A stretch of DNA of 34,886 nt, taken from contig OMXR01000011.1 in the NCBI GenBank assembly GCA_900315045.1, forward strand, positions 1 to 34,886. Reading direction: 5' to 3'. The position numbers and the translations under genes are program-made. The stretch comes from an uncultured Sutterella sp. Lineage in GTDB: Bacteria > Pseudomonadota > Gammaproteobacteria > Burkholderiales > Burkholderiaceae_F. Under the pieces are notes generated by a model, which was given only the letters and a program-made list of their open reading frames with translations, had not been told where the DNA came from and did no database searches. Positions within the stretch are counted from its first letter, which is position 1; each line of letters begins with the position of its first letter. Below are positions 1,282 to 27,880 of this stretch, one piece after another.

Positions 1282-1375
1282 TGCAGTATGGACAAGGGCG
1301 GGCTGTTTAGCCCTGTTGGAAATGGATTCATCAACTCACTACCTTTTTTAATTTCGGAGAATGGAGGACACCCCC

Positions 1376-2344
1376 ATGTTCAAGAAACTTGCTCCCGCCG
1401 CCTTTGCCGCGGCCATGCTTCTCGGCTCCTCAGTGTGCGCTGCCGGCGATACGTTCGTGACGATCGGCACCGGCGGCATCACCGGCGTGTACTACCCTAC
1501 GGGCGGGGCCATCGCCAAGATCGTCAACGCCAAGAAGTCCGTCTACCACGTGCGCGCCTCCGTGGAATCCACGGGCGGCAGCAAGTTCAACATCAACGCC
1601 ATCGACGCCCGGGATCTTGACTTCGGCATCGCCCAGGCCGACACGCAGTACCTCGCCTACAACGGCAAGGGCCCCTGGAAGGGCAAGGCCGTGAAGAAGC
1701 TCCGCGCCGTGTTCGCCCTGGCTCCCGAAGCCGTGACGTTCATTGCCGCCGATGACACCGGCATCAAGAGCCTGAAGGATGTCAAGGGCAAGGTGATCAA
1801 CCTCGGCGACCCGGGCTCGGGCAACCGCGTGAACGCGCTTGACGTCTTCAGCACGACCAAGCTCGTGCCCGGCAAGGACTTCAAGGACGAGAAGCTCAAG
1901 CCCGCCGACGCCCCCCGCGTTCTGCAGGACGGCCGCATCGACGGCTTCTTCTACACCGTGGGCCACCCGAACGGCAACATCAAGGAGGCGACCTCGGGCA
2001 AGCGCAAGGTGCGCATCGTTCCGATCACCGGGCTTGACAAGCTCCTGAAGAACGCCCCGTACTACGCCATGACCACCATTCCCATGGATCAGTACCCCGG
2101 CGCCGTGAACTCGGGCGAAAAGGTTGAGACGCTCGGCATGCTGGCCACGCTCGTGACGAGTTCGGACACCCCCGAGGATGTCGTCTACGCCATCACCAAG
2201 GAAGTGTTCGAGAACCTTGACTCGTTCAAGAAGCTCCATCCCGCTCTGGGCGGCCTCACCGCCAGGGGCATGCTCGAGGGCCTCACGGCTCCCATCCACA
2301 AGGGCGCCCTGAAGTACTACAAGGAGGCCGGCCTGATCAAGTAA
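1376..2344 (+). CDS. TAXI-family TRAP transporter substrate-binding protein
   Basis: A 322-residue periplasmic binding protein. MFKKLAPAAFAAAMLLGSSVCAAGD is a signal peptide with a likely cut after CAA or AGD. The mature protein begins with FVTIGTGGITGVYYPTGGAIA, the hallmark TAXI-family start, followed by STGGSKFNINAI and LGDPGSGNR, which are typical of the family. Size fits (about 320 residues). An ATG 15 nt upstream is in frame, but GGAGG at 1363-1367 lies 8 nt before the chosen ATG and decides the start. The protein captures an unidentified small solute (TAXI proteins are associated with glutamate or other carboxylates) and delivers it to the fused permease encoded next. A hairpin and a terminator-like hairpin separate the two genes, which should favour excess binding protein. 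Confidence 0.93.
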   Translation: MFKKLAPAAFAAAMLLGSSVCAAGDTFVTIGTGGITGVYYPTGGAIAKIVNAKKSVYHVRASVESTGGSKFNINAIDARDLDFGIAQADTQYLAYNGKGPWKGKAVKKLRAVFALAPEAVTFIAADDTGIKSLKDVKGKVINLGDPGSGNRVNALDVFSTTKLVPGKDFKDEKLKPADAPRVLQDGRIDGFFYTVGHPNGNIKEATSGKRKVRIVPITGLDKLLKNAPYYAMTTIPMDQYPGAVNSGEKVETLGMLATLVTSSDTPEDVVYAITKEVFENLDSFKKLHPALGGLTARGMLEGLTAPIHKGALKYYKEAGLIK

Positions 2345-2364
2345 ATACCCAGTCCGACTCAGCC

Positions 2365-2391
2365 GGGAAGCCTCGCGCGAAGTGGCTTCCC
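2365..2391 (+). repeat. intercistronic hairpin behind the binding-protein gene
   Basis: GGGAAGCC and GGCTTCCC form a perfect 8-bp stem with an 11-nt loop just after the binding-protein stop codon. There is no U-tract, so it more likely protects the mRNA 3' end than terminates transcription. Confidence 0.5.
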
Positions 2392-2406
2392 GCGCATTCC
2401 CAAGGA

Positions 2407-2434
2407 GCCGGCCGCTGTTCAGGCCGGCTTTTTT
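2407..2434 (+). terminator. intrinsic terminator between binding protein and permease
   Basis: GCCGGCC-gctgttca-GGCCGGC is a perfect 7-bp GC stem followed by six T. It lies between two genes of one transporter, so it probably acts as a partial terminator that sets their expression ratio. Confidence 0.75.
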
Positions 2435-2507
2435 GGAACGCGCAGAACACGATCCGACCTTTATTTCACGAATGCACAAGACGCGCGATTAACCGGAGAA
2501 AGAAGCA

Positions 2508-4643
2508 ATGACCCAGACAGAAGACCCGATACTGGAAGTGGTGCCCGATGCGGCCGCAGACAAAACCTCCTCGGCCGATGTGATCGGCGAGTACAAGAAG
2601 GAGGTCACGCACGGCGACCACGGCATCAAGGGCGACAAGACCAACATCACCAAGCGCATCACGTTCATTGTGGCGCTTGCCTGGGCGCTCTTTCAGCTTT
2701 CCACCGCGAGCTGGCTGCTGCTTGACTCGCTCTTTGTGAAGAGCTTCCACCTGGCGTTTGCCATGACGCTCGTCTACCTGAACCTGCCCACGCTCAAGTC
2801 TGGCACGAAATCGCGCTGGGACCTGCGCATCCTGCTCGCCATGAAGCGCGTCACGCTCGTGGACTGGGCGCTCGGCGCCCTGGCGGCGCTCTCGGCGCTC
2901 TACATCTTCCTTGACTACGCGGGCATCAGCGAGCGTCCCGGGCAGCCGATCGGCCGGGACCTCATCTTCGGCGTCATGCTGATCGTGCTCATGCTCGAAG
3001 CCACGCGCCGCGTTCTGGGACCGGCGCTTCCCATCATCTGCGGCGGCTTCATGGCCTACGTGTTCCTCGGCCCGTACCTGCCCGACCTCGTCGCCTTCAA
3101 GGGCGCCACGCTCTCGCGCTTCATCTCGCAGATCACCATGGACACGCAGGGCATCTACGGCGTGCCGCTGCACGTCTCCGCAACGGTCGTGTTCCTCTTC
3201 GTGCTTTTCGGCACCATGCTTGACCGGGCAGGGGGAGGGGCGTTCTTCACCCGCATCGCCATCTCCGGCCTCGGCCAGTACCGGGGCGGCGCCGCCAAGG
3301 CAGCCGTCGTGAGCTCGGCGTTCTCGGGGATGGTCTCGGGCTCCTCGATCGCCAACGTGGTGACGACGGGCACCTTCACGATTCCGCTCATGAAGCGGCT
3401 CGGATATCCCGCCCAGAAGGCCGCCGCCATCGAAGTGGCCTCCTCGGTGAACGGACAGCTCGCGCCACCCGTGATGGGCGCCGCGGCCTTCATCATCGCC
3501 GAATACGTCAACGTGCCCTACGTGGAAGTGGCCAAGGCGGCCGCCATTCCGGCCTTCGCCTCTTACATGGCGCTTTTCTGGATCACGCACATCGAGGCCT
3601 GCAACCTCGGCCTGAAGGGCCTGCCCAAGAGCGAGCTGCCGCGCTTCTGGATCGAGCTGCGCAACGGGCTGCACTTCCTGCTGCCCCTTGCCGTGCTGAT
3701 CTACGAGCTCGTCTGGATGCAGCACTCGGCCGAACTCTCGGTCTTCAACGCAATCGTCGTGCTCTCGGCCATCATCGTGATGCAGCCCGTGTGCATCGCC
3801 AGAGTGAAGAGGGAGCCGCTTGCCCCGGCCTTCAAGGCGGGCGTGAAGGCGCTTGTCGAATCCCTGGCGGCCGGCGCGAACAACATGTCGGGCGTTGCCC
3901 TTGCCACGGCCTCGGCCGGCATCATCGTGGGCTGCGTCTCGCTCGGACTCGGCCAGCAGATCACGAGCTTTGTCGAAGTGCTCTCGATGGGCAACATCTT
4001 CCTGCTCATCCTGATCACGGCTCTTGCAAGCCTGCTGCTCGGCATGGGCCTGCCCACGACCGCCAACTACATCATCATGGCTTCGCTTACGGCGCCCGTC
4101 ATCGTCGAGCTCGCCACGGGCCTGAACGTGCACGGCACGGAAATCGCCATTCCGCTCATCGCCGCACACCTGTTCTGCCTGTACTTCGGCGTGCTTGCCG
4201 ACGCAACGCCCCCGGTGGGGCTCGCCGCCTACGCCGGCGCCGCCATCGCCAAGGCAGACCCGATCCGCGTGGGCGTGCAGGGCTTCATCTACGACATCCG
4301 CACGATGCTGCTGCCCGCGGTGTTCCTCTTCAACGCCGACCTGCTGCTGCTTGGCATCGACAGCTGGCTCGAAGCGCTGCTCATCTTCCTGATGACGAGC
4401 CTCGGGATGATGACCTCGGCAAGCGCCATGCAGGGATTCCTCGTGTGCCGCACGAACCTGCTCGACCGCGTGCTGCTGCTCGCAGCCACGGTGCCGCTCG
4501 TCTTCCCGTACCTGGTCACCGGTTTCTTCCTGCCGTACGAGATGCGCTGGTGGGGCTACCCGGTTGGCGTCGCGATCACCGCACTTGTCTGGATGATGCA
4601 GCTCGCGCGCATGAAGCGCAACCCCGAGCTGCGCCTCGCATAG
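2508..4643 (+). CDS. TRAP transporter permease, fused small and large subunits (TAXI type)
   Basis: A 711-residue inner-membrane protein. After a polar N-terminus of about 50 residues come four hydrophobic segments (DctQ-like part, to about residue 190) and then a DctM-like part with many helices. That part includes the signature LLLGMGLPTTANYIIMASLT and the duplicated-fold motif FSGMVSGSSIANVVTTGTFT. Length and fusion are normal for TAXI-type TRAP systems, which use a sodium or proton gradient to import the solute bound by the upstream protein. The ATG at 2508 follows GGAGA with good spacing. The gene shares its strand and presumably its promoter with the binding protein. The substrate cannot be told from sequence. 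Confidence 0.93.
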   Translation: MTQTEDPILEVVPDAAADKTSSADVIGEYKKEVTHGDHGIKGDKTNITKRITFIVALAWALFQLSTASWLLLDSLFVKSFHLAFAMTLVYLNLPTLKSGTKSRWDLRILLAMKRVTLVDWALGALAALSALYIFLDYAGISERPGQPIGRDLIFGVMLIVLMLEATRRVLGPALPIICGGFMAYVFLGPYLPDLVAFKGATLSRFISQITMDTQGIYGVPLHVSATVVFLFVLFGTMLDRAGGGAFFTRIAISGLGQYRGGAAKAAVVSSAFSGMVSGSSIANVVTTGTFTIPLMKRLGYPAQKAAAIEVASSVNGQLAPPVMGAAAFIIAEYVNVPYVEVAKAAAIPAFASYMALFWITHIEACNLGLKGLPKSELPRFWIELRNGLHFLLPLAVLIYELVWMQHSAELSVFNAIVVLSAIIVMQPVCIARVKREPLAPAFKAGVKALVESLAAGANNMSGVALATASAGIIVGCVSLGLGQQITSFVEVLSMGNIFLLILITALASLLLGMGLPTTANYIIMASLTAPVIVELATGLNVHGTEIAIPLIAAHLFCLYFGVLADATPPVGLAAYAGAAIAKADPIRVGVQGFIYDIRTMLLPAVFLFNADLLLLGIDSWLEALLIFLMTSLGMMTSASAMQGFLVCRTNLLDRVLLLAATVPLVFPYLVTGFFLPYEMRWWGYPVGVAITALVWMMQLARMKRNPELRLA

Positions 4644-4758: not shown

Positions 4759-4776
4759 CGGAAAAAATATTTTCCG
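4759..4776. repeat. 7-bp inverted repeat upstream of the hydrogenase operon
   Basis: CGGAAAA-AATA-TTTTCCG is a perfect dyad about 10 bp upstream of the candidate -35 box of the hydrogenase operon. It does not match the FNR or Rex consensus. It could be an operator for an unknown regulator. Confidence 0.4.
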
Positions 4777-4784
4777 GCAGGCTC

Positions 4785-4811
4785 TTGCCGAGCCGTTTTT
4801 GGCTCTAAAAT
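4785..4811 (+). promoter_or_regulatory. possible sigma-70 promoter of the hydrogenase operon
   Basis: TTGCCG and TAAAAT are separated by 15 nt, a short spacer. The spacer itself carries a small dyad (GAGCC at 4790-4794, GGCTC at 4801-4805). The -10 box is good and the -35 box weaker. It is the best candidate in the 290-nt gap, with a leader of about 120 nt. Confidence 0.3.
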
Positions 4812-4937: not shown

Positions 4938-6950
4938 ATGCGCAAACTCCAATACGGCGTTTGGAAAGGCGTCAAGTACGACAACACCCAGGGCGGCGAG
5001 AGCGCCCCGGACGACATTTCCCTTTCCGAGTTCAACCAGTTCAACCCAGGCAATCCGGTCGACGCCATCATCACGGGCTTTGGCTTTCTTGTGTTTGACA
5101 GGAATGTGTCCCTTGCCGGCATCCTCGCCCGGTACTACACCCGGGTGCGGGAAACCTCGTGCGGGCGCTGCACGCCGTGCCGCACGGCAACGCTCCTCAT
5201 CGAGGAGGCGATGGACAAGCTCGTGGCCGGCAAGGCCGACGAGGTCGACTGGGTCAAGTTGAAGGACGACGCTCTGCAGATGCGCATCTCGAGCATGTGC
5301 GGCATCGGCAAGACGACGCCCACGGCGCTGCTCGGCGCCCTCGAACACTTCCCCGAGCGGCTCTTTGAGAGCGCCCGCGAGCTCACCGGCGACATGTACA
5401 CGACGGTCACCGCCAAGTGCATCGAGGCGTGCCCGGCGCACGTGAACGTGCCGCGCTACATCGACTACGTCCGCGACGGCCGTCCGGATCTTGCCGCGGG
5501 CGTTCTGCTGCATCACTATCCGCTCGTTGCAACCTGCGGGCGCGTGTGCGTGCGTCCGTGCGAAAAGGCCTGCCGCAGGGGGCTCGTCGATGCGCCGATC
5601 GCGATCAAGGACATCAAGCGATACGTGGCGGACAACGCGGGCGACTCCATCGTCAACCTGTTCTCCAGGATGGAGCCGCTCATCGACGACACCAAGGCAA
5701 GGGTCGCCGTGGTGGGCGCCGGACCCGCCGGCCTGAACTGCGCCTATCACCTGCTCATGAAGGGATACCCGGTCACGATCTACGACAAGGACAACCAGGC
5801 AGGGGGCATGGCGCTGCGCGGCATTCCGCCGTACAGGCTCCCCAAGGGGCTGCTTGCCAAGGAGACGAGCGCCATCGGAGAGCTCGGCGGCAAGTGGAAG
5901 TTCGGCCAGAAGCTCGGCGAAGACTTCACCGTCTCGCAGCTTTTCGAAGAAGGGTACGGAGCCGTGTTCCTCGGCATCGGCTGCGCCGAGGGCGCCTTCC
6001 TCGGCCTGCCCGACGAGGACCGCTCGATGCCCGGCTACCAGAACGGCATCGACTTCCTGCTCAACATTGAAAAGGGCGTGCACGCCGGCACGCCTCCCGT
6101 GATCGAGGGCGACGTCGTGATCGTCGGCTGCGGAAACGTGGCCATGGACTGCTGCCGCTCGGCGCGCCGCATCGCCACGGGCTCGGTGCACGTCGTGTAC
6201 CGCCGCACCGCGGCCGAGGCCTCGGCCGACGCCGAAGAGATCGAGGCCGCCCAGGCCGAGGGCGTGCAGTTCCACTTCCTCACCAACCCCGTGCAGATCC
6301 TCTCCGAGGGCGGCCGCGTCTGCGGCGTGCGCCTCACCCGAATGGAGCTCACCGAGAAGGACGCCCGCGGCCGCCGCGGCGTGCAGCCCGTGCCGGGAAG
6401 CGAGTTCGACCTCCCGTGCACGACGCTCATCGCCTCGATCGGCCAGAAGGTCGAGCGCAATGTCTTTGCCGATGCCGACGGCGTGCTCCTTGACCGCCGA
6501 GGCAACATTTCCGTCACGCCCGCGCTCGCGACGAGCCGCCCGGGCGTGTTCGCGGGCGGAGACTGCGCAACGGGCCCGACGACGCTCATCGGGGGTCTCG
6601 CGCAGGGCAAGCTCGCCGCCGAGTCGATCGACGAGTACCTCTCGCGCGGCTCGGTGGGCTTCACGCCCCGCAACCGCATGGGCGAGATCATCCGCAAGTG
6701 CCATCTGCTCGAGGACGGCGCGCCCTACATTCCGCGCGTGAAAAAGCCCCGCAACAAGCTGCCCAGCATTCCGGTCGCCGAGCGCGAAGGCAACTTCCGC
6801 GAGGTCGACATCACCTTTTCCAAGGATCAGGCCGAGAACGAAGCCGACCGCTGCATGCGCTGCTACCGGCTCTTCTCCGTCGTCACCCCGCGCCCGATTC
6901 CGGGCAACCACAGCACGCTGCCCATGAGCGGCGATGCGGCAAAAAAATAA
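4938..6950 (+). CDS. NuoF-tail / GltD-like fusion, probable NAD(P)H partner of the [FeFe] hydrogenase
   Basis: A 670-residue iron-sulfur flavoprotein. Residues 40-145 resemble only the C-terminal part of NuoF/HydB: GFLVFD, then SCGRCTPC (Cys75, 78, 81) with Cys121 as the fourth [4Fe-4S] ligand. The FMN- and NADH-binding N-terminal domain of NuoF is absent. Residues 155-240 are the cysteine-rich helical domain of GltD and dihydropyrimidine dehydrogenase (Cys161, 165, 200, 204, 208, 212). Then come an FAD-binding GAGPAG (260-265), a second dinucleotide site with GCGNVA (near 397) and GGDCATGPTTLIGGLAQG (near 539). The C-terminus has a CMRC pair (near 639). By analogy it passes electrons between NAD(P)H and HydA, encoded 18 nt downstream. 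The start follows GAAGGA. The NuoF-like fragment is an in-frame domain, not a frameshift product. Pyridine-nucleotide choice and any bifurcation cannot be read from the sequence. Confidence 0.85.
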   Translation: MRKLQYGVWKGVKYDNTQGGESAPDDISLSEFNQFNPGNPVDAIITGFGFLVFDRNVSLAGILARYYTRVRETSCGRCTPCRTATLLIEEAMDKLVAGKADEVDWVKLKDDALQMRISSMCGIGKTTPTALLGALEHFPERLFESARELTGDMYTTVTAKCIEACPAHVNVPRYIDYVRDGRPDLAAGVLLHHYPLVATCGRVCVRPCEKACRRGLVDAPIAIKDIKRYVADNAGDSIVNLFSRMEPLIDDTKARVAVVGAGPAGLNCAYHLLMKGYPVTIYDKDNQAGGMALRGIPPYRLPKGLLAKETSAIGELGGKWKFGQKLGEDFTVSQLFEEGYGAVFLGIGCAEGAFLGLPDEDRSMPGYQNGIDFLLNIEKGVHAGTPPVIEGDVVIVGCGNVAMDCCRSARRIATGSVHVVYRRTAAEASADAEEIEAAQAEGVQFHFLTNPVQILSEGGRVCGVRLTRMELTEKDARGRRGVQPVPGSEFDLPCTTLIASIGQKVERNVFADADGVLLDRRGNISVTPALATSRPGVFAGGDCATGPTTLIGGLAQGKLAAESIDEYLSRGSVGFTPRNRMGEIIRKCHLLEDGAPYIPRVKKPRNKLPSIPVAEREGNFREVDITFSKDQAENEADRCMRCYRLFSVVTPRPIPGNHSTLPMSGDAAKK

Positions 6951-6968
6951 ACGAGCGGAGAGAGAGAA

Positions 6969-8771
6969 ATGAAAGCCTGGATCAACAACAGAGAAATCGA
7001 ATTCACCGAGGGCGAGACCATCCTTGAAGCCGCCAAGCGCACGGGCATCTTCATTCCGACCCTGTGCGCGTACCTGCCGCTTGACCACACGCCCGGCACC
7101 TGCCGCATGTGCCTGGTGCAGGTCGACGGCATGAACGGGCATCCCGACGGGCTGATCGTGCCCGCGTGCACCTCGGCCCTGCAGGAGGGCATGCGCATCT
7201 TCACCCGCAGCGCCCGCGTGCGCGAGATGCAGCAGAGGCAGGTGCGCTGGCTCTTTGCCGACCACGATCAGGACTGCTCGAGCTGCGCGCGCCACGGCAA
7301 CTGCGAGCTGCAGGACGTGGCCCTTTACGTCGGCATTCAGCGCAACCCCTGCAACGGCAGGTTCCTTGTGAAAAGGAACGTGGACACCTCGAGCCCGAGC
7401 CTCGTGCTCGACGCCACCAAGTGCATCCGCTGCGGCCGATGCGTCGAGGTCTGCCGCAAGATTCAGGGCCTCGGCTGCCTCACGATTGACGACATCGGCG
7501 CCCACTGCTCGGTCGGCATCAGCCAGGCCGACAAGTGGAATGACTCGCCCCGGTGCGTGAACTGCGGCCAGTGCTCGATCGTCTGCCCGACGGGCGCGAT
7601 CGGCGAAAAGGATGAAACCGAGACCGCGATCGACTGGTTCATCGATCCCGACATCAAGACCGTCGTCGCATTCGCCCCGTCCGTGCGTGTCACGATCGGC
7701 GACTCGTTCGGCATCCCGGCTGGCGAGAACTGCGAAAAGCGTCTCATCGCCGCATTGAAGCACATGGGCGCCGACTACGTGTGCGACGTGAACTGGGCAG
7801 CCGACGTGACGATCATGGAGGAGGGCACGGAGCTGCTTGAGCGCATTCAGAACGGCGGCACGCTGCCCATGATGACGAGCTGCTGCCCGGGCTGGGTGAA
7901 CTTTGCCGAAAAACTCCATCCGAAGGTGCTGCCGAACCTCTCGACCACGCGCTCGCCTCAGGCCATCTTCGGCGCGCTCGCCAAGACGTGGTTTGCCAAA
8001 GAGCACGGAATCGACCCGAAGAAGCTGCGCTTCATCTCAATCATGCCCTGCACGGCGAAGAAGGATGAATGCGCGCGCGAGCAGCTCTCGCGCGACGGCG
8101 TTCGCGACACCGACCTCGTGCTCACGGTGCGCGAGCTCTCGCGTCTGCTGCGCCGCCACGGACTGCGCCTTGACACCATGCGCGAGGAAGCCGACTACGA
8201 CTCGCCATTCATGAGCCAGAACACGGGCGCCGCGGTAATCTTCGGCGTCACGGGCGGCGTGATGGAAGCGGCGATCCGCACCGTGCACCACGTCGTCATC
8301 GGCAAGGAGCTCGGCCCGGTCGAATACCAGCCCGTGCGCGGCATGGACTGGCTCAAGGAGGCCGAAGTTGATCTCGGCGAGAAGGGCAAGGTGAGAATCG
8401 CCGTGGTCCACGGACTGAGAAACGCCGAAAAGATGTGCCGGCAGATCGAGGAGGGCAGCAGCCCGTACCACTTCATCGAAGTGATGGCGTGCCCCGGCGG
8501 GTGCGTCGACGGCGGCGGCAACCCGCGCAAGAAAAACAGCTACCTTGAGACGCAGGCGGCGCGCACCGAGGGCATCTACAAGCTCGACCGCGAGCGGCCG
8601 ATCCGCCAGAGCCACAACAACCCCGACGTCGTGCGGCTTTACAAGGAGTTCCTCGGTAAGCCCTGCGGACACCTCAGCCACGAGCTGCTCCACACGCACT
8701 ACAAGGACAGGACGAGCAAGGGCAAGGTGATGAGCATCACCGATATCTGGAAGGAAGTGAAGCTCGGATAG
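6969..8771 (+). CDS. hydA: [FeFe] hydrogenase catalytic subunit, group A
   Basis: A 600-residue cytoplasmic enzyme that reversibly reduces protons to H2. Domains in order: a [2Fe-2S] ferredoxin fold (Cys33, 45, 48, 67); a His-ligated [4Fe-4S] site (His99, Cys103, 106, 112); two [4Fe-4S] clusters (CIRCGRC at 152-158 with Cys162, and CVNCGQC at 196-202 with Cys206); then the H-cluster domain. All three H-cluster signatures are intact: TSCCPGW (303-309, including the proton-relay Cys305), MPCTAKKDEC (359-368) and MACPGGCVDGGG (506-517). A C-terminal small-subunit-like domain follows (YLETQAARTEGIYKLDRE and onward). This architecture matches NAD(P)H-linked enzymes such as HydA of multimeric complexes. 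The gene follows the flavin partner and is closed by a strong terminator. The maturases HydE, HydF and HydG are not in the window and must be encoded elsewhere if the enzyme is active. Confidence 0.95.
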   Translation: MKAWINNREIEFTEGETILEAAKRTGIFIPTLCAYLPLDHTPGTCRMCLVQVDGMNGHPDGLIVPACTSALQEGMRIFTRSARVREMQQRQVRWLFADHDQDCSSCARHGNCELQDVALYVGIQRNPCNGRFLVKRNVDTSSPSLVLDATKCIRCGRCVEVCRKIQGLGCLTIDDIGAHCSVGISQADKWNDSPRCVNCGQCSIVCPTGAIGEKDETETAIDWFIDPDIKTVVAFAPSVRVTIGDSFGIPAGENCEKRLIAALKHMGADYVCDVNWAADVTIMEEGTELLERIQNGGTLPMMTSCCPGWVNFAEKLHPKVLPNLSTTRSPQAIFGALAKTWFAKEHGIDPKKLRFISIMPCTAKKDECAREQLSRDGVRDTDLVLTVRELSRLLRRHGLRLDTMREEADYDSPFMSQNTGAAVIFGVTGGVMEAAIRTVHHVVIGKELGPVEYQPVRGMDWLKEAEVDLGEKGKVRIAVVHGLRNAEKMCRQIEEGSSPYHFIEVMACPGGCVDGGGNPRKKNSYLETQAARTEGIYKLDRERPIRQSHNNPDVVRLYKEFLGKPCGHLSHELLHTHYKDRTSKGKVMSITDIWKEVKLG

Positions 8772-8793: not shown

Positions 8794-8822
8794 AGAGCCC
8801 CGAAATTCGGGGCTCTCTTTTT
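8794..8822 (+). terminator. intrinsic terminator of the hydrogenase operon
   Basis: AGAGCCCCGA-aat-TCGGGGCTCT is a perfect 10-bp stem followed by CTTTTT, 22 nt after the hydA stop codon. Confidence 0.9.
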
Positions 8823-12750: not shown

Positions 12751-13503
12751 TTGAAACTCAAGCTTGCCGCTCTGGCTGCCCTCGCGGCCGCATCCTTCGC
12801 CGCCGAGGCACACTTCGGGATGGTGATTCCCGACAAGGCCGCCGTGGCCGATCAGAAGGCTTCCACCGTGAATCTCACCATCGCCTTTGCCCACCCATTT
12901 GAGCAGAACGGGATGACGATGGCGAGGCCCCGCGCGTTCTACGCCGTGGCCGACGAGAAGAAAATCGACCTCATGAAGACCCTGAAGCCCGCCAGGTTCC
13001 TCGGCAAGTCCGCCTGGAAGAGCGCCTTTGCCGCGAAAAAGCCTGGCGTGTACCAGTTCGTCGTGGAACCCGAACCGTACTGGGAGCCCGCCGAGGACAA
13101 GTTCATCGTGCACTACACGAAGGTCGTGGTGCCCGCCTACGGCGAGGAGGAGGACTGGGATAAGCCCGCCGGCGTGAAGACCGAGATCGTGCCGCTTACG
13201 CGCCCCTTCGGCAACTGGGCCGGCAACACGTTCCAGGGCGTCGTTCTCGTTGACGGCAAGCCCGTGCCCGGCGCCGAGGTGGAGGTCGAGTACTACAACA
13301 GGGACGGCAAGAAGAAGGCGCCCACCGACCATCACGTCACGCAGGTCGTGAAGGCTGACAGCAACGGCGTGTTCACGTACACTGCCCCCTGGGCCGGCTG
13401 GTGGGGCTTTGCAGCGCTCACCGATGCCGACTACAAGCTCAAGCAGGACGGCAAGGACAAGGATGTTGAACTGGGTGCCGTTCTCTGGACCAAGTTCGAC
13501 TGA
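12751..13503 (+). CDS. nikK: periplasmic nickel/cobalt-uptake accessory protein (DUF4198, NikK-like)
   Basis: A 250-residue secreted protein, first gene of the ECF metal importer. The signal peptide ([20 protein letters not shown]) is followed by [15 protein letters not shown], so cleavage would expose a histidine at the mature N-terminus. Two beta-rich regions of DUF4198 type follow, including [49 protein letters not shown] and [15 protein letters not shown]. The start is TTG at 12751 with GGAGAG a few bases before it. The gene order that follows matches the NikKMLQO arrangement known for nickel transporters, which supports nickel, though cobalt cannot be excluded. Confidence 0.85.
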
Positions 13504-13517
13504 TCTGACTGACGCTC

Positions 13518-14126
13518 ATGCATATTTCTGAAGGCGTTCTCTCGGCTCCGGTGCTCATCGCCGGAGCCGTATTTGCGGCAGGGGGCATCGCTCTCGGGCT
13601 GAAGAAGCTGCGCGACGACCGGCTGATGACGGCCGGGCTGCTGGGCGCGGCCTTTTTCGTCGCTTCCCTCATTCACGTGCCCGTGGGCTTTTCGAGCGCC
13701 CACCTGATTCTGAACGGACTCGTGGGCGTTCTTCTCGGCTGGGGCGCCGTGCCCGTCATCTTCATCGCCCTGCTGCTGCAGGGGCTCATCCTGCAGTTCG
13801 GCGGACTCACGGTGCTCGGCGTGAACACCGTCACGATGGGGGCGGGGGCTCTTGCCGCGCACTACCTGTTCCGCGCCGTGAGCGGCGGGCAGACCGGAAG
13901 TCGCTTCACCGCTGCGGCCGCGCTTGCGGGCGCAGCGGGAATCCTTGTGAGCAGCCTGCTCACGGCTGCCGCGCTCGTATTCACCGAAGAGGGGTTCTGG
14001 GCAGCCGCTGCTGCGCTCCTTGCCGCGCACCTGCCGATCATGGTCGCCGAAGGCGTCATCACGGCAATCGTGTGCCGGTATCTGCTCAAGGCCGCTCCCG
14101 ATCTTTTCTCAGGAAATTCGCTGTGA
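13518..14126 (+). CDS. nikM: ECF nickel/cobalt transporter substrate-binding membrane subunit (NikM/CbiM)
   Basis: A 202-residue integral membrane S-component. It begins MHISEGVL, the diagnostic N-terminus of CbiM/NikM, in which the amino group and His2 take part in metal binding. Later motifs such as HVPVGFSSAHLILNGLVGVLLGW and LQGLILQFGGLTVLGVNTV are characteristic, and about six to seven hydrophobic segments are visible. It starts 14 nt after nikK, and its TGA overlaps the GTG start of nikL by four bases (GTGA), indicating coupled translation. Confidence 0.93.
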   Translation: MHISEGVLSAPVLIAGAVFAAGGIALGLKKLRDDRLMTAGLLGAAFFVASLIHVPVGFSSAHLILNGLVGVLLGWGAVPVIFIALLLQGLILQFGGLTVLGVNTVTMGAGALAAHYLFRAVSGGQTGSRFTAAAALAGAAGILVSSLLTAAALVFTEEGFWAAAAALLAAHLPIMVAEGVITAIVCRYLLKAAPDLFSGNSL

Positions 14127-14734
14127 AAAAACTCCTTTGCTCGGCGCTCATCGCGCCCGTCATCGCGTTTTCGGCTGAAGCGCTCGCCCACCGGGTGAAC
14201 CTTTTTGCCTGGGTCGAGGGCGACGCGGTTCAGGCCGAAGCCAAATTCTCCGGCGGCTCGCGCGCGAGAAACGCCAGGATCACGGCCACGGACAAGGCGA
14301 CCGGCAAGCTGATCGCAAGCGGCACGACCGACGGCAAGGGCGCCTGGCACTTTGCGCTTGACGCGAAGACGCGCTCGGCGGCGCACGACATCCTTCTGGT
14401 GATCGACGCGGGCGAGGGCCACCGCAACGAGTGGACCGTTCCCGCAAGCGACTTCGCCCAGGGCGCTGCCGCCCCTGAACCCCCTTCCGGGCAGCCCGCG
14501 CAGGAACCCGCGCCGCAGCCAAGCGCCGCCCCGGCGCCCGGCGTCTGCGTGAGCAGGGCCGAACTCGAGGCGATCGTCAGCCGCGCGCTCGACGCCAGGC
14601 TCGCTCCCGTGATGCGCGCCGTTGCGCAAAACCGGGACGAGGGCCCGAAGCTCTCCGAGATCGTGGGCGGCATCGGCTGGATCGTGGGACTGTTCGGCAT
14701 TGCAGCATATCTGCGCAGGCGCCGCTCCGAGTAG
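14123..14734 (+). CDS. nikL: NikL/CbiL-like membrane-anchored accessory subunit
   Basis: About 203 residues starting at GTG 14123, which overlaps the nikM stop. The signal peptide VKKLLCSALIAPVIAFSAEALA is followed by HRVNLFAWVEGDAVQAEAKF, so the mature protein also begins with His. A single beta-sandwich (carboxypeptidase-regulatory-like) domain spans about residues 25-110. It leads to a Pro/Ala/Gln-rich linker (115-140), a short helical region and one C-terminal membrane helix (GGIGWIVGLFGIAAYL) ending RRRRSE. This is the domain order of NikL/CbiL, a helper that works with NikM in metal capture. Confidence 0.85.
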   Translation: MKKLLCSALIAPVIAFSAEALAHRVNLFAWVEGDAVQAEAKFSGGSRARNARITATDKATGKLIASGTTDGKGAWHFALDAKTRSAAHDILLVIDAGEGHRNEWTVPASDFAQGAAAPEPPSGQPAQEPAPQPSAAPAPGVCVSRAELEAIVSRALDARLAPVMRAVAQNRDEGPKLSEIVGGIGWIVGLFGIAAYLRRRRSE

Positions 14735-14735
14735 G

Positions 14736-15458
14736 ATGATGGCGATCGACCCCAGAGTACGGATTACTGCCGGAGCCCTGCTTGCCTGCGCAAGCGCCGT
14801 GGTTCCGAGCATTGCCGCAGCGGCGCTCTCAGCCGCCTGCGCCGCGCTTTTTGCCGCCGCGCTGCCCGCGCCAGCGCGTGCAACCGCGCTCGGACGCCTT
14901 GCCTCGGTGAACGCGTTCCTCATTTTCATCTGGCTCTTCACCCCGTTCACCGTGCCGGGGGAAGCGGCCTTTCACGTGTTCGGCCTGCCCGCAAGCCGCG
15001 CCGGGCTCTCGATTGCGCTTCTGGCAACCCTCAAGTGCAACGCAGCCTTTCTCTGGTTCACGGCCGCTACGGGCACCATGACGCTCACTGAGTTCGCAAG
15101 GGGCCTCACGGGGCTTCGCTTTCCCGCAAGGCTCGTGTCGCTGCTGCTGCTCACCGCGCGCCAGATCGGCACCTTCTCGGAGATTTCCGCGCAGCTGCGC
15201 CAGGCGGCCAGACTGAGGGCCTTCCAGCCCCGGCTCGACCGGCGCACGTACCGCACGCTCGCGAGCTTTGTCGCCATTCTCCTGCTGCGCGCCTTCGGCA
15301 AAAGCCGCGCGATGCAGGACGCGCTCAAGCTTCGCGCCTTCAGCGGCACATGGCCGCGCCCCGAATCCGCAAGGCTCGCCGCAGCCGACTGGACCGTGCT
15401 CGGCCTTGCAGCCCTTGCCACCCTTATCATTGCCTGCGTCTCGATTCTTCTGCCCTAA
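14736..15458 (+). CDS. nikQ: ECF transporter transmembrane subunit (NikQ/CbiQ)
   Basis: About 240 residues and highly hydrophobic. It is the T-component of an ECF importer and couples the S-component to the ATPase. The coupling region contains QLRQAARLRAF and KSRAMQDALKLRAF, corresponding to the paired Ala-Arg-Gly type motifs of the family but with Arg-Ala-Phe in place of ARG. Two adjacent ATG codons (14736, 14739) could start it; both lie just after the nikL stop. Confidence 0.85.
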   Translation: MMAIDPRVRITAGALLACASAVVPSIAAAALSAACAALFAAALPAPARATALGRLASVNAFLIFIWLFTPFTVPGEAAFHVFGLPASRAGLSIALLATLKCNAAFLWFTAATGTMTLTEFARGLTGLRFPARLVSLLLLTARQIGTFSEISAQLRQAARLRAFQPRLDRRTYRTLASFVAILLLRAFGKSRAMQDALKLRAFSGTWPRPESARLAAADWTVLGLAALATLIIACVSILLP

Positions 15459-15464
15459 AGCGCC

Positions 15465-16151
15465 ATGTCCGGAAAACACCTTCTGCAAGTCAAGAACCTC
15501 TCGTTCGGATTCACGGGGACATCCCGTCTGTTTGACGGAGCCTCGCTCACGATCCACGAGGAGGACCGGATCGGTCTCTGGGCCGACAACGGCTCAGGCA
15601 AGACGACGCTTCTGCGCATCATCACCGGACTGCAGAAGGCCGACGCGATGGAATTCACGCTTGACGGCAAGCCGGTTACGGACGAGCAGGGATTCCGGCA
15701 AGTGCGCAAAAGCTTCGGCTTTGTTCTGCAGAATGCCGAAGACCAGCTCTTTTTCCCCGAAGTGATCGATGACGTGATGTTCGGGCCGCTCAATCTGGGC
15801 CTCTCCGAGACCGAGGCGCGCAAGGCCGCTCTTGAGGCTCTTTCCAGACTCGGCATCAGCCAGCTTGCTAACGCCGATTCCTTCCGGCTCTCGGGCGGTC
15901 AGAAGCGCCTTGTCTCCATTGCCTCGATCCTGGCGATGCGCCCGGTCGGGCTGCTGCTCGACGAGCCGACGACGGGGCTCGATGCCAAGGCAAGGGCGCG
16001 CCTGATCGAAGTGCTCGGCGCGCTCGACGGGCCGCGCCTCATCGTGAGCCACGACATGGCGTTTCTGCGCGCGGTTTCCAACCGCCTTGTGAGCATTGAA
16101 AACGGGCATCTGGTGCCCTTGAATTTCCCGGCCGGTGAGCACTTTTCCTGA
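15465..16151 (+). CDS. nikO: ECF transporter ATP-binding subunit (NikO/CbiO)
   Basis: A 228-residue ABC ATPase. The Walker A motif reads ADNGSGKT (40-47), with Ala in place of the usual first Gly. The Q-loop region is FGFVLQNAEDQLF, typical of CbiO. The signature is LSGGQ (near 142), Walker B is GLLLDEPT, and the switch histidine is in IVSHD. It starts 6 nt after nikQ and closes the nikKMLQO operon. I see no strong terminator immediately after it. Confidence 0.93.
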   Translation: MSGKHLLQVKNLSFGFTGTSRLFDGASLTIHEEDRIGLWADNGSGKTTLLRIITGLQKADAMEFTLDGKPVTDEQGFRQVRKSFGFVLQNAEDQLFFPEVIDDVMFGPLNLGLSETEARKAALEALSRLGISQLANADSFRLSGGQKRLVSIASILAMRPVGLLLDEPTTGLDAKARARLIEVLGALDGPRLIVSHDMAFLRAVSNRLVSIENGHLVPLNFPAGEHFS

Positions 16152-22600: not shown

Positions 22601-23773
22601 TTACGAGGCGAAGGCCTCGTTCAGGATCGCGATGGGAATGCGCTCCTGCTCAAGACGCAGCCGGCCCGAGCGCAGATAATCCCAGAGCGCAAGCTCGCTC
22701 TCGGTGAGGCCTTCGGCGGGGCACGGGATTTCGCGGGTGGGATCGGCAACCGCCAGGTGCGCAAAACGCTCGGCCGCAGACCGGTCCATCAGCACGGACT
22801 GCACGCCGGGCAGCCACCCCCGCAGTCTTGCCAGGATCGCAAGCCCGTGCTGGTCGAGATCACCCATGTAGCGGATGCAGGTGTGCTTCATCCAGCTCAC
22901 GCGCGCAAGCATGTCGACCGCGGCGCCCATGCCGATCACGACGAGCGTGTCCGGACGCACCCGAATGGAAAGCCCGGTCTGCAGGTTTTCCAGAACGGCG
23001 ACCCTTCGGGGCGGACGGATCGCCGCCTCGAACACTTCGGGCGGCAGAGCCACCATCGCCTCCGCGGGCAGCCCCGGCACCAGGATGTCGGCGTGCCGCA
23101 CCCGAATGAGAGGGCTCGGCGTGCGCAGCGCCCATCGCGTTTCGATGTCGGCCGCCCTGAGCGGCTCGGCAAGCCCCATCATCTCGGTGAGGATCGGTGC
23201 CGCCAGAGACCGATTGCGCTCCAGCCACTTGCTGTCGACGCCCTCGATGGGAAGCTCGCGCACGAAGCACCCGGCCTTCTCATGCCGGGACAGCCAGGTA
23301 ACGGCTACGCAAAGCCTGTCAAATTCATCCGGCTCGCTTTCCATCAAAAACCCCGTCTGATGCAAAAGCGCGGCGGCAAGGCAGGGAGACGCGCCGCGCA
23401 GCCGGACAAGCGCCCGGGCGTAGCGCTTTGCCAAAGCGGGGCCCTCAGGCATGAGAGCAAACGCTCCCCTGGCGCCCAGAACTTCAACCGCAGCAAGCGT
23501 TTCCCGGATCCCCGCCTGAAGCCAGCGCACGGGCTCGCTCTCCAGGCGCACCTCCTGCGGGCAGTCGGCCGCGATCCGCTTCCAGCTCTCGAGCCACGCG
23601 CGGTATGCGGCAATGTCGCCGAGCACTTCCTGGCGCTCGGGCTTGAGGACGAACCGGATCGGCGCCCAGGGCTTGCCCAGGTATTCGCGCGCGAGCCACT
23701 CGCTGCCGTGCTTTTGGAACGCGCGCGCAAGCCGACAGCCGATCTCCCGGCAGCTCCTAAGCATCGGGCGCAT
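22601..23773 (-). CDS. jetD: Wadjet nuclease subunit JetD
   Basis: A 390-residue protein of the DUF3322/DUF2220 type, the Toprim-fold nuclease of the Wadjet anti-plasmid system. The N-terminal half carries WLQAGIRETLAAVEVLG and HQTGFLMESEPDEFDRL. The Toprim metal ligands are visible: Glu262 in VLENLQTG, and Asp305 and Asp307 in GDLDQHG. In studied systems JetD cleaves circular DNA that the JetABC SMC complex has extruded and recognised as closed and small. It overlaps the end of jetC by 17 nt, so translation is coupled. Met4 is an alternative start. It is the last gene of the operon. Confidence 0.92.
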   Translation of the reverse strand: MRPMLRSCREIGCRLARAFQKHGSEWLAREYLGKPWAPIRFVLKPERQEVLGDIAAYRAWLESWKRIAADCPQEVRLESEPVRWLQAGIRETLAAVEVLGARGAFALMPEGPALAKRYARALVRLRGASPCLAAALLHQTGFLMESEPDEFDRLCVAVTWLSRHEKAGCFVRELPIEGVDSKWLERNRSLAAPILTEMMGLAEPLRAADIETRWALRTPSPLIRVRHADILVPGLPAEAMVALPPEVFEAAIRPPRRVAVLENLQTGLSIRVRPDTLVVIGMGAAVDMLARVSWMKHTCIRYMGDLDQHGLAILARLRGWLPGVQSVLMDRSAAERFAHLAVADPTREIPCPAEGLTESELALWDYLRSGRLRLEQERIPIAILNEAFAS

Positions 23774-26700
23774 CCTCGGGCGGCTGCTCTGCGGCCGGTC
23801 CGCCGAGCATGCTGCTCACGCGCTCGGGCGACATGTTGAGCACGCTTGAGATCCGCCGCTCGGCGCAGGACACGTACGAGAACGAGCCGATGTAGGGCTC
23901 GAGCGTATAGAGCGCCTTCTCGGGCGTTGCAATCACGGGCTGGAAGCCGAAGTCCATGAAGATGCGCATGGAGATGTCCGTGAATTCGCTGTCGGCCTTG
24001 TCAAAGGCCTCATCCATCACCACGGGCGCATACCTGGGCTTGACCGCCCGGGTGCCGCCAAGCTGGTAGCGCAGCGCTGCCACCAGGCACGTCATGGTGA
24101 GCTTCTGCCTCTGTCCGCCGGACTTGCCCGCGCCGCTGTCAAAGACCTCGATCGTGCCGCCCGCATCGTCGAACTCGATTCCCTGAAACGTGACGTGCTC
24201 GCGCACGTCGAGCACGCGCTCGCGCCACAGGCGGCTCTGGGGATTGTCCTCATTGAGCCGCGCGATCAGCTCGGAGAGCTTGACGAAGTATCTTTCGGCC
24301 TCGGCCTGTCCGTGCACATCGGCGCTTTCCTGCATGACCGCCCCCTGCAGTTCGCGGAATTCCCGCACTTCGGGCAGCTGCCTGTCGCGCACGGCAATGC
24401 GCAGGTGCGTCTCGCGTCCCTCGGTGCGGTTGAATGCGACCTCGGCAAGCGAGTCGTTCACCTCCTTCATGCGGGATTTGATCTGGCGCCGTTCGATGTC
24501 AAGCTCGCGCGCGAGGTCGATGAGATTCTGCCTAGCGTGGTTCTCGAGCAGATCCCTGAACCGCGCCTCGTACCGGGGCAGGCCGTCGGTCTGCAGATCC
24601 TCCAGGCGCGCGAAATAGTCGGCGGCAAAGAGCTCGCTTTCGCCCAAGTTGGCCGCCTCCGCAGGCCAGCGTTGGCGGAACCGGGCAAACAGCACGATCA
24701 TCTGGCCCTTTTGCTCCTCGCGCTGCACGGCCGCCTTCTGCTCGGCGCCGGCGAGCCGCTGTCCGAGGCCAGAGGCTCTGCCCGGAAGATTCTTTTCGGT
24801 GAGGGCCGCATCCGGGTGAGCATCAAAATCGTTTCCGTCCAGCGCTCCGAGCAGCTCTTCGCTCACCGGCTGCGCGCGCAGCAGAGCGCGCGCTTCCTCA
24901 AGCCGCGCCCGTTCGCTCTCAAGACTCATCTCAAGTTGGGCGCTGCGCGTGACAAACTCTCCTTCGACGCTCTTCACCTTCTCGATCTGCTCCTCGGTCT
25001 GCGCGATCTGCCCGGAGAGCTCCTGCAGGCGCTTGTCGGACTTCTTGATCTCGTCCATGCGGGCGGTGAGCTCGCGGATCCTTTCGGCATGCGAGGCCGA
25101 ATCGATGTCCTCCCAGGGCAGGCCGAGGATCTTGATGACGGCCTCGGCGCGGCGGGCGAGTTCCGAGCGCGCATCCGCACCCCGGCTGAGCTCGGTCATG
25201 AAGCCTGCGATCCTCTCGCTCACCTCGCCGGCCTCCTGTTCGTAGAGACGGCGCTTTTCCGCATTGCTGAACCCCGTGGACCAGGCCCTGCGGTCCGAGA
25301 CAGAGCGCCGGTCATCCTTCTCATGCCGCACCATGTTGTGCTTGACCTGTCCGGAAACCGTGACGGCGCGCTCAAAACCCGCAAAGCCGGCCGTGTCCTC
25401 GACGCATTCATAGTCAAAGCGCTCAGCGAGCTCGTTCATGAGCCAGAGGCGCATCGCTCCTGCCTTGAACTCGAACTTGCCGGGAACGGAGCTCCCGCTG
25501 AAGGCATCGGGGGTTTTCTGCACCCGTCCGACCCGGTTGTAGACCAGGCGCAGCCCGAGATTTCTCCGGTTCACGGCCCGGGCAAAGCGTGCATAATGCG
25601 CGTCAGGCACCAGAACCGAAAGCGCAAGAGGGCGCACGACGCGCTCGCAAGCTCCCTGCCAGCGCTCCTGTCCGGGCAGGATCTGCATCAGCTCTCCGGC
25701 AAAGGGCAGGTCGGCCGGCGCAAGTTCCAGCTCCTCGGCAATCCGGGCGCGCATTTCAAGCAGATCGGCGCGGATGTTCGAGGGCTGTGCGCGCATGGCT
25801 TCGATTTCCCGCCTGAGCAGCGCAAAGCGCTTTTCAGCCTCGGCCTTCTGCACCGTGAGCGCGTCATGCTCCTCGGCGAGCCGCTGCTCGCGCTCGGCTA
25901 GCCGGTCGCGCTCCTCACGCAGCCTTGCGCTCATGGCGCTGAACTGCGCTGCGGTTTCAGGCAGCTTGACCGAAAGCAGCTCCACCTCCCGCTGCAGGGA
26001 CTGCCTTCGCCTTGCCGCTCTCTCGTAATCGTCCCGGGCAACGCGCAGCTCGTGCCCGAGCCGCTCGATCATCTCGCCGCCGCTCTTGTAGTGCTCCTCG
26101 CGCAGACTGTCGCGCCGCGCGGAGAGGGTGCGCAGCTGCCCGCGGGCATCGGCGAGCCGGGCCTTGACAAGCGTGCTTTCGCGCTCGATCCCCGGCAGAC
26201 GCTTCTCGAGGAACCCCGCAAGCCTTGCGCTCTTCCACTGCTCGACGGCGCCGGCCAGCCGGCTCATGCGCGCCTGTTCCTGCTCGGCCTGCAGCATCCG
26301 GTCGTGCGCCTGCCTGGCAAGCTCGAGAACCTCAACCTGCTCGCGGGCCTTTTTCACCACATCGTAGGCCTGGCGCAGCTCCGTGAACTCCTCCACCAGC
26401 GTGCGGGCGATCTCGTACGTGCGGGGCACCTCGAGCATGAACTCGCGGAAAAAGAAGTTCACGTCCCCCATGTTCTTGGCCGACTGAGCCTTGTGCAGCA
26501 GATCAAGCACCTTGCGGTCGCTGATCCCGAAATACCTGCCGAAGCACTCGAAGTACGGGCCGAATGTTGCAAACATCTCGCTCGAAGGGGCGCGCTTTTT
26601 CACGAGGCGCACGTTGAAGTCCGCATCGGCGAAGTCGGCGATCGACTGGAGGTCGAACTCATCGGGGATCACGAAATAGTTGCGCCGCACGGACTGCTCG

Positions 26701-27113: not shown

Positions 27114-27133
27114 CAAATGCCTCCCTTGTGCGT

Positions 27134-27880
27134 TCATTCCTCGGCCTCATCCTCGGAAGGGGCGCCGCCGGCCAGTTCGGCCGCCTCGAGCCTGCGCGCC
27201 TTCACGCCCTCGTAGGCCTCGGAAAGCTGCTCGACCAGCGAAGCGTCGAACACGACCTTGAGCACCGGGCTCACCTCCCAGTTCTCTCCGGTTCTGTCCA
27301 GCGGCAATAGCAGATGCCGCTCCCGCATGCGCTTGACGACCGCGTTCACGCGCGTGGCAAAGAGTGCCGTGTCGGCGCGCGCAGAAGGCTCGACCACGGA
27401 GAGCAGGGTGCGGATTTCGTCGAGCGACATCATCGCGCGCGAGCCGCTTTGCTGCGCCCGCATCAGCCTGTCGCGCATTTCGACAATCAGAACGGAATCG
27501 AGAAACTTGAAGCTGTAGCGGTTGAGCAGGCTGGGCAGCTGCTCGCCGGCAATCTCCGCAGCCCGCACGAACGCGACTCCGACCTCCTCGTCGAGCACCA
27601 GGCAAAGCAGGAGATTGTTCAGTCTCTGCTCGATCAGCTCGCGGTTGTTGAGAAGCATCTCCCAGGCATCCCGGCGCCTTTCCCTGAACAGGTACGGCCC
27701 CTTGAGGATCGTGACGAGCAGGCTGCGCAGGGGCAGGGAGAGATCCCCCCGGTCCCCCTCGAACAGCTCTGCCGGGCGGCAGCCCTCATGATCCATCTCC
27801 CGCCCGCCGTCCTGCGGCGGCTCCTGCGCGCCCGTCCCGTCCGGGACTTGAGTTGATTCGCTCTGCATCTGTTCGCTCAT
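27134..27880 (-). CDS. jetB: Wadjet subunit JetB (MukE-like, DUF4194)
   Basis: 248 residues. A polar, Gln/Glu-rich N-terminus of about 40 residues is followed by winged-helix-like segments: LRSLLVTILKGPYLFRERRRDAWEMLL, LLLCLVLDEEVGVAFVRAAE and MSLDEIRTLLSVVEPSARAD. The C-terminus is acidic. This fits the MukE-like kleisin partner of the JetABC condensin, which bridges JetA and JetC. Its ATG overlaps the jetA stop by 4 nt (ATGA), and its stop lies 20 nt before the preferred jetC start. Confidence 0.88.
   Translation of the reverse strand: MSEQMQSESTQVPDGTGAQEPPQDGGREMDHEGCRPAELFEGDRGDLSLPLRSLLVTILKGPYLFRERRRDAWEMLLNNRELIEQRLNNLLLCLVLDEEVGVAFVRAAEIAGEQLPSLLNRYSFKFLDSVLIVEMRDRLMRAQQSGSRAMMSLDEIRTLLSVVEPSARADTALFATRVNAVVKRMRERHLLLPLDRTGENWEVSPVLKVVFDASLVEQLSEAYEGVKARRLEAAELAGGAPSEDEAEE

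Follow-up and report, generated by a model that had tools for sequence, protein, structure and literature searches.

A putative two-subunit NADP(H)-linked [FeFe]-hydrogenase in an uncultured Sutterella species, and relatives in which HydG is not found

How does a [FeFe]-hydrogenase exchange electrons with a nicotinamide nucleotide when it is accompanied neither by the flavin mononucleotide (FMN)/NADH domain of HydB nor by HydC, and how is its active site assembled when one of the maturation genes is not found in the genome? Both questions are raised by two adjacent genes on a 34,886-nucleotide stretch of DNA (the window) from an uncultured Sutterella sp. The window is contig OMXR01000011.1 (contig 60) of assembly GCA_900315045.1 (genome code G000), which comprises 2.19 Mb in 161 contigs and is 96% complete. 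Both reading frames are open at positions 4938-6950 and 6969-8771, where a preliminary description of this DNA had placed them, lie on the forward strand and start with ATG. Judged by its domains, the first product fuses a NuoF-tail [4Fe-4S] domain to a GltD-like flavin adenine dinucleotide (FAD)/NADPH module; the domains and motifs of the second identify it as a group A [FeFe]-hydrogenase subunit (HydA) that is complete. We think it likely that the pair is a two-subunit, cytoplasmic, reversible and non-bifurcating NADP(H)-linked [FeFe]-hydrogenase. Its features, in window coordinates, are as follows.

4938-6950, forward strand: SfrB/GltD-like NADPH oxidoreductase subunit with an N-terminal NuoF-tail domain, 670 amino acids; named SfrB-like from its architecture and from papers
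5124-5360, forward strand: NuoF-tail [4Fe-4S] (N3-type) domain PF10589, residues 63-141, ligands C75, C78, C81 and C121 (Pfam, Protein Data Bank (PDB) search, alignment)
5409-5639, forward strand: GltD/DPD-type two-cluster domain PF14691, residues 158-234, with C161, C165, C200, C204, C208, C212 and K227 (Pfam, alignments)
5700-6608, forward strand: FAD and NADP(H) Rossmann domains, residues 255-557, with GAGPAG, GCGNVA and YRR (421-423) (Pfam, alignments)
6771-6872, forward strand: C-terminal segment with C639/C642 (alignments to StnC, the NfnA of NfnABC, and NfnB/NfnL)
6951-6968, forward strand: 18-base intergenic gap with a purine-rich, ribosome-binding-like stretch
6969-8771, forward strand: HydA, group A [FeFe]-hydrogenase catalytic subunit, 600 amino acids (Pfam, NCBIfam, motifs, alignment)
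6981-7637, forward strand: ferredoxin-like part of HydA, residues 5-223, with a [2Fe-2S], a His-ligated [4Fe-4S] and two [4Fe-4S] clusters
7656-8711, forward strand: H-cluster domain and small-subunit domain of HydA, residues 230-581

The 4938-6950 product matches PF10589 with 62 bits (cut-off 23.5), and the rest of the protein is covered by PF14691 and Pyr_redox_2. Pfam reported no Complex1_51K FMN/NADH domain in the fusion, and neither a second flavin site nor a ferredoxin-type domain of the HydB kind. With the NCBIfam model nuoF_fam it scores 41 bits against a cut-off of 559, the NuoF tail being present and the FMN domain absent. In the 6969-8771 product Pfam finds the small-subunit domain and, at 287 bits, the H domain, besides Fer2_4, NADH-G_4Fe-4S_3 and two stretches of Fer4; this protein exceeds the cut-off of TIGR02512 (480 bits against 406) and contains the H-cluster motifs TSCCPGW, MPCTAKKDE and EVMACPGGCVDGGG together with the cluster ligands. 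NuoE/HydC (PF01257, expectation value (E) ≤ 0.001) gave no match in the genome of the window or in 11 relatives (0/12); seven of 14 control genomes were positive. Since there is neither a HydB FMN domain nor a HydC, it must be the GltD part that carries out the nucleotide chemistry. These results bear out the preliminary description, which had proposed a NuoF C-terminal [4Fe-4S] domain fused to a GltD-like FAD protein, a HydA with ferredoxin-like clusters and an H-cluster, the lack of NuoE/HydC, and NAD(P)H chemistry at the GltD part.

The fusion was sought in 61 genomes (its own and 60 relatives) and was found in 21, at identities of at least 46%, the copies of G006 and G013 being cut by contig ends. 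In a survey for the same gene pair, which the preliminary description had proposed, a HydA homologue follows the fusion on the same strand in all 21 of these genomes, that of the window included (coordinates compared by eye; the HydA of G004 and of G006 is cut by a contig end), and eight loci of other lineages, described below, were found among the matches listed. In G001 the HydA lies at a contig edge that leaves no room for a fusion. The ligands of the NuoF-tail cluster (C75, C78, C81 and C121), those of the GltD clusters (C161, C165, C200, C204, C208 and C212, with K227) and the pair C639/C642 near the C-terminus are kept in 19/19 aligned fusions (that of L053 is cut at its N-terminus), an invariance which argues that the joining of the domains is not a chance effect. 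In the 19 aligned HydA proteins, lineages lacking HydG included, no substitution is seen in the H-cluster cysteines or in the Cys and His residues that ligate the accessory clusters; L053 (G013) is absent from this alignment. One HydA (L038) has TSCCSGW instead of TSCCPGW. The sequence of locus L052 (G022) does not differ in this region from that of the Turicimonas locus L081, and G084 and G062 agree in their HydG coordinates and scores with the genomes that carry the named Sutterella (L069) and Aphodousia (L083) loci, which points to a gut bacterium of Sutterellaceae type as the source of the window. Plasmids yielded no close copy: of 168 matching records, three reach 80% coverage of the query, and all are below 60% identity.

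The best PDB matches of the GltD region are the NfnA of NfnABC (9bov, 321 bits; 9n5u), StnC (8oh5_C) and NfnB/NfnL (4ylf_B, 5jca_L), with scores from 321 to 253 bits against NfnABC, StnC and NfnL, as compared with 143 bits against the GltD of glutamate synthase. StnC and the NfnA of NfnABC (8oh5_C, 9bov_A, 9n5u_A) align in one piece through the C639/C642 CxxC, whereas in NfnB/NfnL the CxxC segment is N-terminal to the common part and aligns to residues 614-642 or 598-642 of the fusion, in weak second-domain alignments (4ylf_B, 5 bits; 5jca_L, 12 bits). The module is therefore circularly permuted in the StnC/NfnABC manner. The cluster next to the FAD provides a second point of comparison. According to PMC10482914, this cluster is ligated in StnC by three Cys and Lys170, NfnB having Glu there, and the StnC flavin is non-bifurcating. 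StnC K170 falls at the position of K227, which in an alignment of 100 GltD-type proteins is Lys in 30/30 proteins of the window's kind (two of them, L081 and L052, identical) and Glu in 28/28 plain GltA/NfnB-type proteins, as classed by length and the lack of other domains; it is His in four others and Glu in the paralogue on contig 93 of the same genome.

Drawing on homologues for the FAD, the preference for NADP(H) and the order of electron transfer, we infer the following path. NADPH (or NADP+) would exchange hydride with the FAD of the GltD-like domain, and single electrons would then travel through the two [4Fe-4S] clusters of the GltD part, the FAD-proximal one being Lys-ligated as in StnC and the other completed by the C-terminal CxxC. 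From there they would pass to the NuoF-tail [4Fe-4S] cluster, which would dock on HydA as NuoF does on NuoG, and through the clusters of HydA to the H-cluster; the contact between the subunits and the direction of flow we only infer.

Such a module might instead bifurcate electrons at the GltD FAD as NfnB does, coupling NADPH to H2 and ferredoxin (or NAD), or confurcate them, which the preliminary description had thought possible; the GltD fold and the Arg that contacts N5 are indeed common to bifurcating NfnB. We consider this very unlikely; K227 and the lack of partners led us to reject it as the leading explanation. At the FAD-proximal cluster stands Lys and not Glu, as in StnC, whose FAD is non-bifurcating (PMC10482914); the pair has no NfnA-like second flavoprotein (sought within the pair), HydB FMN domain or ferredoxin-type C-terminal domain; and NuoE was not found in the genome. 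The closest known complexes compare as follows. Bifurcating HydABC (group A3; 7p5h, 7q4v, 8a6t) shares the anatomy of HydA and the NuoF-tail [4Fe-4S] domain, its HydB chains matching residues 34-142 of the fusion, but the pair in the window is without its FMN/NADH domain, HydC and ferredoxin domain. NfnAB differs in the residue at K227, in its N-terminal CxxC and in its NfnA partner, no domain like which is seen in the pair. StnABC and NfnABC (8oh5, 9bov, 9n5u) share a GltD module that has a C-terminal CxxC and a Lys at the FAD-proximal cluster and feeds a NuoG-like part. However, Stn has NuoF (StnB, with FMN) and NuoE (StnA) partners, neither of which was found here, and no H-cluster, and in StnABC/NfnABC the GltD module lies inside the NuoG-like chain, whereas here it sits on the NuoF tail. 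The non-bifurcating reading is favoured by the StnC-type Lys, the lack of a second flavin and of a ferredoxin domain, and NuoE not being found.

To what known class does the pair belong? HydDB group A2 (PMC5037454) comprises HydA proteins whose immediate downstream neighbour is of GltA/GltD type, NuoF being absent, and is labelled "glutamate synthase-linked (putative)", with its role undetermined. The pair shares with it a group A HydA with an intact H-cluster and, if a neighbour on either side is counted, a GltD-domain protein next to it. It differs in that the GltD-type gene is immediately upstream, so that the printed rule does not apply as written although the pair fits what the class is meant to hold, and in that the fusion has a permuted CxxC as well as the NuoF-tail [4Fe-4S] domain; because the rule looks at the downstream protein, it would by itself presumably place the window's HydA in A1. 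Taken literally, the A2 label would have electrons from H2 feed glutamate synthase, a reading to which the HydDB description (PMC5037454) and the GltD homology lend themselves and which we regard as highly improbable. No glutamate synthase large subunit (GltB) was found among the 25 proteins scanned in the window, to which the search was confined; the module scores less than half as high with the GltD of glutamate synthase as with NfnABC; and related loci pair the module with NuoG/molybdopterin-type proteins.

A precedent for the NADP(H)-linked reading is the 2012 genome paper on Pelobacter carbinolicus, in which HndD-1 is predicted, from the genome, to work with an adjacent SfrB-like NADPH-oxidizing partner (PMC3543383). 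These genes, Pcar_2502-2503, would also form a two-gene [FeFe]-hydrogenase with such a partner and are, going by their description, probably a pair of the same kind. SfrAB itself, the NADPH:Fe(III) oxidoreductase of Geobacter, is named in PMC7483475 and PMC3543383. The likeness of the fusion to Geobacter SfrB is one of architecture. A literature search that missed most subscription papers found no biochemical study of such a pair. The earlier view that the arrangement is little described holds only in part, given HydDB A2 and the Pelobacter proposal, and other lineages also carry the fusion. The pair belongs to a known, apparently uncharacterized kind for which the "glutamate synthase" label is probably misleading.

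An alignment-based scan of 84,980 species genomes, from which the best 80 of at least 594 matches were kept, revealed the same fusion adjoining HydA at eight loci outside the Sutterellaceae among the matches listed: in an Ancalomicrobiaceae, a Xanthobacteraceae, a Geminicoccaceae, Rhodovulum sp. PH10, Pleomorphomonas koreensis, a Desulfobulbaceae, a Desulfovibrio and a Verrucomicrobium assembly (in L075 and L077 the fusion is cut at a contig edge). The Verrucomicrobium locus (L075) groups among Alphaproteobacteria on the tree described below and may be misbinned. All eight HydA proteins have the H-cluster cysteine motifs, two with SSCCPAW for TSCCPxW. The NuoF-tail/GltD fusion is not special to the betaproteobacterium of the window.

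SfrB provides the GltD-type NADPH subunit of SfrAB, and its partner is of NuoG/Mo type. At four further loci (L076, L079, L080 and L082) the fusion adjoins a NuoG-like protein where the window has HydA; the partners at the first three, which were scanned with Pfam, carry [2Fe-2S] and molybdopterin domains, so that these loci show the layout of SfrAB and L082 probably does. In L079 (4001-8369) and L080 (3866-8389) the fusion and a NuoG/molybdopterin-type protein stand together in this way. Because the same module pairs with such proteins in related loci, it behaves as a plug-in NADPH module. Elsewhere, L089 (2732-5758) and L094 (2654-5797) encode proteins of 1009 and 1048 amino acids, beside HydA, that link GltD to a whole NuoF with its FMN domain, possibly an ancestral or a three-site form; L094 has His at the position of K227. 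The HydA proteins beside such long NuoF-GltD proteins (L086, L089, L094, L129) have TSCSPGW as their first H-cluster motif, not TSCCPxW. In Enorma, Olsenella, Pseudoramibacter and a Lachnospiraceae (L102, L123, L110 and L133), a GltD protein of 606-641 amino acids adjoins HydA, and in the two of these that were scanned (L102, L133) it contains the NuoF-tail domain.

A quick tree was built from 71 GltD regions, 29 of the 100 rows having been left out before, by a short search with support from the Shimodaira-Hasegawa-like approximate likelihood ratio test only. It places 28 fusions of the window's kind in one clade (support 99), 27 of which adjoin HydA, the other (L069) ending at a contig edge; this clade and the four NuoG-paired fusions lie on one side of a branch with support 100. 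The Enorma/Lachnospiraceae group falls in another part of the tree, as sister to the full NuoF-GltD protein L089 (97), and L086, L094 and L129 lie in yet another place (100), the FMN domain having been shown for L094 only of these three. Since the HydA-linked forms hold separate positions, a NuoF piece and GltD seem to have been joined more than once to serve HydA; L089 is a form that still has the FMN domain.

In which direction would the pair run? The H2 couple, computed from textbook potentials, lies between -384 and -325 mV at 0.1 to 0.001 atm of H2 and at about -355 mV at 0.01 atm. The NADPH couple is close to the H2 couple at those pressures, and both directions are therefore possible; with the couples near equilibrium we lean slightly towards H2 oxidation making NADPH over H2 evolution at gut H2 pressures. 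The second Rossmann motif, GCGNVA, is of the GxGxxA form, which is taken for NADP(H) in PMC7483475, and YRR is invariant. The same module could nevertheless have NADH as its partner in vivo, or serve as a one-way, NADPH-driven producer of H2 for fermentative redox disposal. The Pelobacter paper proposes disposal of NADPH electrons (PMC3543383), and the nearest NCBIfam model for HydA is that of the NADH-dependent group A6, although the score of 711 bits is below its cut-off of 765. The GxGxxA and YRR motifs point instead to NADP(H), and evolution of H2 from NADPH would at best be near equilibrium at 0.01 atm; we hold this alternative to be improbable.

The match to the A6 model is one of several points that count against our reading of the pair as a reversible, non-bifurcating NADP(H)-linked hydrogenase. 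R300, which corresponds to NfnB R201 and StnC R239, does not discriminate. In structure prediction, AlphaFold was given one read-through chain of the fusion and the first 223 residues of HydA, with a 34-row alignment whose HydA rows were misaligned over 26-29 residues at the N-terminus. The best model has a mean predicted local distance difference test score (pLDDT) of 84.6 and a predicted template-modelling (TM) score of 0.80, the fusion being mostly above 90; the HydA part is of moderate confidence (47-86 in 10-residue blocks) and the mean pLDDT of the five models ranges from 75.4 to 84.6. As the chain is a single one and inter-domain error is absent from the output, the model says nothing on subunit contact. 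Foldseek matched it to NfnL with a TM score of 0.80 (of target) at 2.6 Å, and to NfnA and StnC with a root-mean-square deviation of 12-13 Å over 749-768 columns, so that the domain arrangement either differs from that of NfnA/StnC or is unsettled. The prediction folds the fusion well and neither supports nor refutes the docking model. Finally, HydG was not found in the genome of the window at E ≤ 1e-10, at 96% completeness, and the activity of HydA is accordingly not assured. The eight other-lineage pair genomes, of unstated completeness, comprise three with HydF and HydG over cut-off, one (G098) with HydF alone and pieces of HydG just under cut-off, and four (G093, G094, G095 and G097) with neither.

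HydG makes the CO and CN ligands of the H-cluster. The hydEFG set, for which the preliminary description had proposed to look in the genome, was recovered in part: HydF is on contig 121 (508 bits, cut-off 326; dimer and tetramer domains confirmed) and HydE on contig 108 (269 bits, cut-off 255), HydG being the member of the canonical set that is not found. In 67 family genomes, with HydA matched at E ≤ 1e-120, 41 have this HydA and 28 have HydG over cut-off; 26 have both, and 15, the window's own among them, have the HydA without HydG. Completeness reaches 90% or more in eleven of the 15, and the assemblies of G078, G077 and G027 consist of about 2, 3 and 7 contigs. The search for HydG was at E ≤ 1e-10 for ten of the 15 and at E ≤ 1e-60 only for the other five (G077-G080 and G087); weak HydG matches (40-49 bits) in G002, G010, G014, G027 and G034 fall on HydE genes. 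HydF is over cut-off in all 15, and HydE is present in 14 (13 over cut-off, G029 just under), G013 having none. In three genera HydG was found in none of the surveyed members (g2, 0/5; g6, 0/3; g14, 0/2), and over the 19 family rows of the quick fusion tree its presence needs at least four changes, as though repeated loss of HydG were possible. A further set of 19 genomes carrying named loci (three from the window's family, completeness unstated), scored for HydF and HydG over cut-off, has seven with both, one with HydG alone, three with HydF alone and eight with neither.

The HydA itself may be inactive as a hydrogenase in the lineages lacking HydG, as an apo-enzyme or a decaying or moonlighting protein. 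The 15 genomes without HydG lend weight to this, as do the four other-lineage pair genomes with neither HydF nor HydG over cut-off and G013, one of the 15, which has an internal stop in the HydA frame (G013:C37:1996-3786); that assembly is 80% complete, and decay or an assembly error is possible. Yet the H-cluster cysteines are invariant in 19/19 aligned HydA proteins, those of HydG-lacking genomes included (L053 of G013 being outside the set), and HydF and, with one exception, HydE are kept. Moreover, this HydA is the only one (E ≤ 1e-20) in six of ten HydG-lacking genomes as against none of 12 HydG-bearing ones (p 0.003, kinship ignored), so that HydE and HydF have no other client seen there. 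We think an inactive HydA unlikely.

A diverged or replaced HydG is possible in these genomes. According to PMC9431212, hydG was not located in five of eight clostridial acetogens, in which an atypical HydG is suspected, and HydA activation by HydF matured with HydE alone, as cited there, reaches about 1%. A paper on natural maturation without HydG was not found in our literature search, limited as above. As a candidate for a HydG substitute, the neighbours of hydE and hydF yielded only a sulfatase, FeoB, a cytochrome b561-type protein, a weak LppC match and two unmatched proteins (ten proteins scanned, four being HydE or HydF themselves), and none was retained. In G010, a genome without HydG over cut-off, a second, short HydA is clustered with a cytochrome b561-type protein, HydF and HydE (L057, 4578-9784). 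We put forward only tentatively, and as the less probable outcome, that several genera of Sutterellaceae-type gut bacteria mature an A2-type, NADPH-linked HydA, the H-cluster site of which is normal, by HydE and HydF without HydG, with CO and cyanide coming from another source.

The surroundings of the pair in the window are as follows.

1361-4643, forward strand: TAXI-family TRAP solute-binding protein and fused TRAP permease, upstream of the pair
4775-4790, forward strand: terminator-like stem-loop that separates the pair from the TRAP permease gene (consensus match only)
8794-8816, forward strand: terminator-like stem-loop with a T run, behind hydA (consensus match only)
12751-16148, forward strand: DUF4198, CbiM, CbiQ and an ABC ATPase, a cobalt/nickel-type uptake system
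22601-29385, reverse strand: Wadjet-type cluster of JetD_C/DUF3322, a 1126-amino-acid SbcC/SMC-like ATPase, DUF4194 and DUF3375

Wadjet is an anti-plasmid defence system. Terminator-like stems of this kind number nine in the window against 4.8 expected in shuffles. Downstream of hydA lies a GGDEF gene on the opposite strand. A conserved gene neighbourhood was considered as a clue to function and set aside: among loci L035-L053, compared over flanks of about 4 kb or less, some ended by a contig edge, the TRAP genes are shared with G002 (L036) only and the GGDEF/RluA-type genes with G001 (L035) only.

Group A2 [FeFe]-hydrogenases are moderately abundant in the gut and their roles still need study, according to a 2025 paper on gut hydrogenases (PMC12578642). 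The anatomy described here would turn the vague label "glutamate synthase-linked" into a concrete claim, that of a minimal, non-bifurcating NADP(H):H2 oxidoreductase made of HydA and a plug-in NADPH module. A number of carriers of this known enzyme class, whose function has only been guessed, seem to be without a gene thought essential for assembly of the active site, and their genomes, some in two or three contigs, form a natural set in which to ask whether the H-cluster can be built without HydG.

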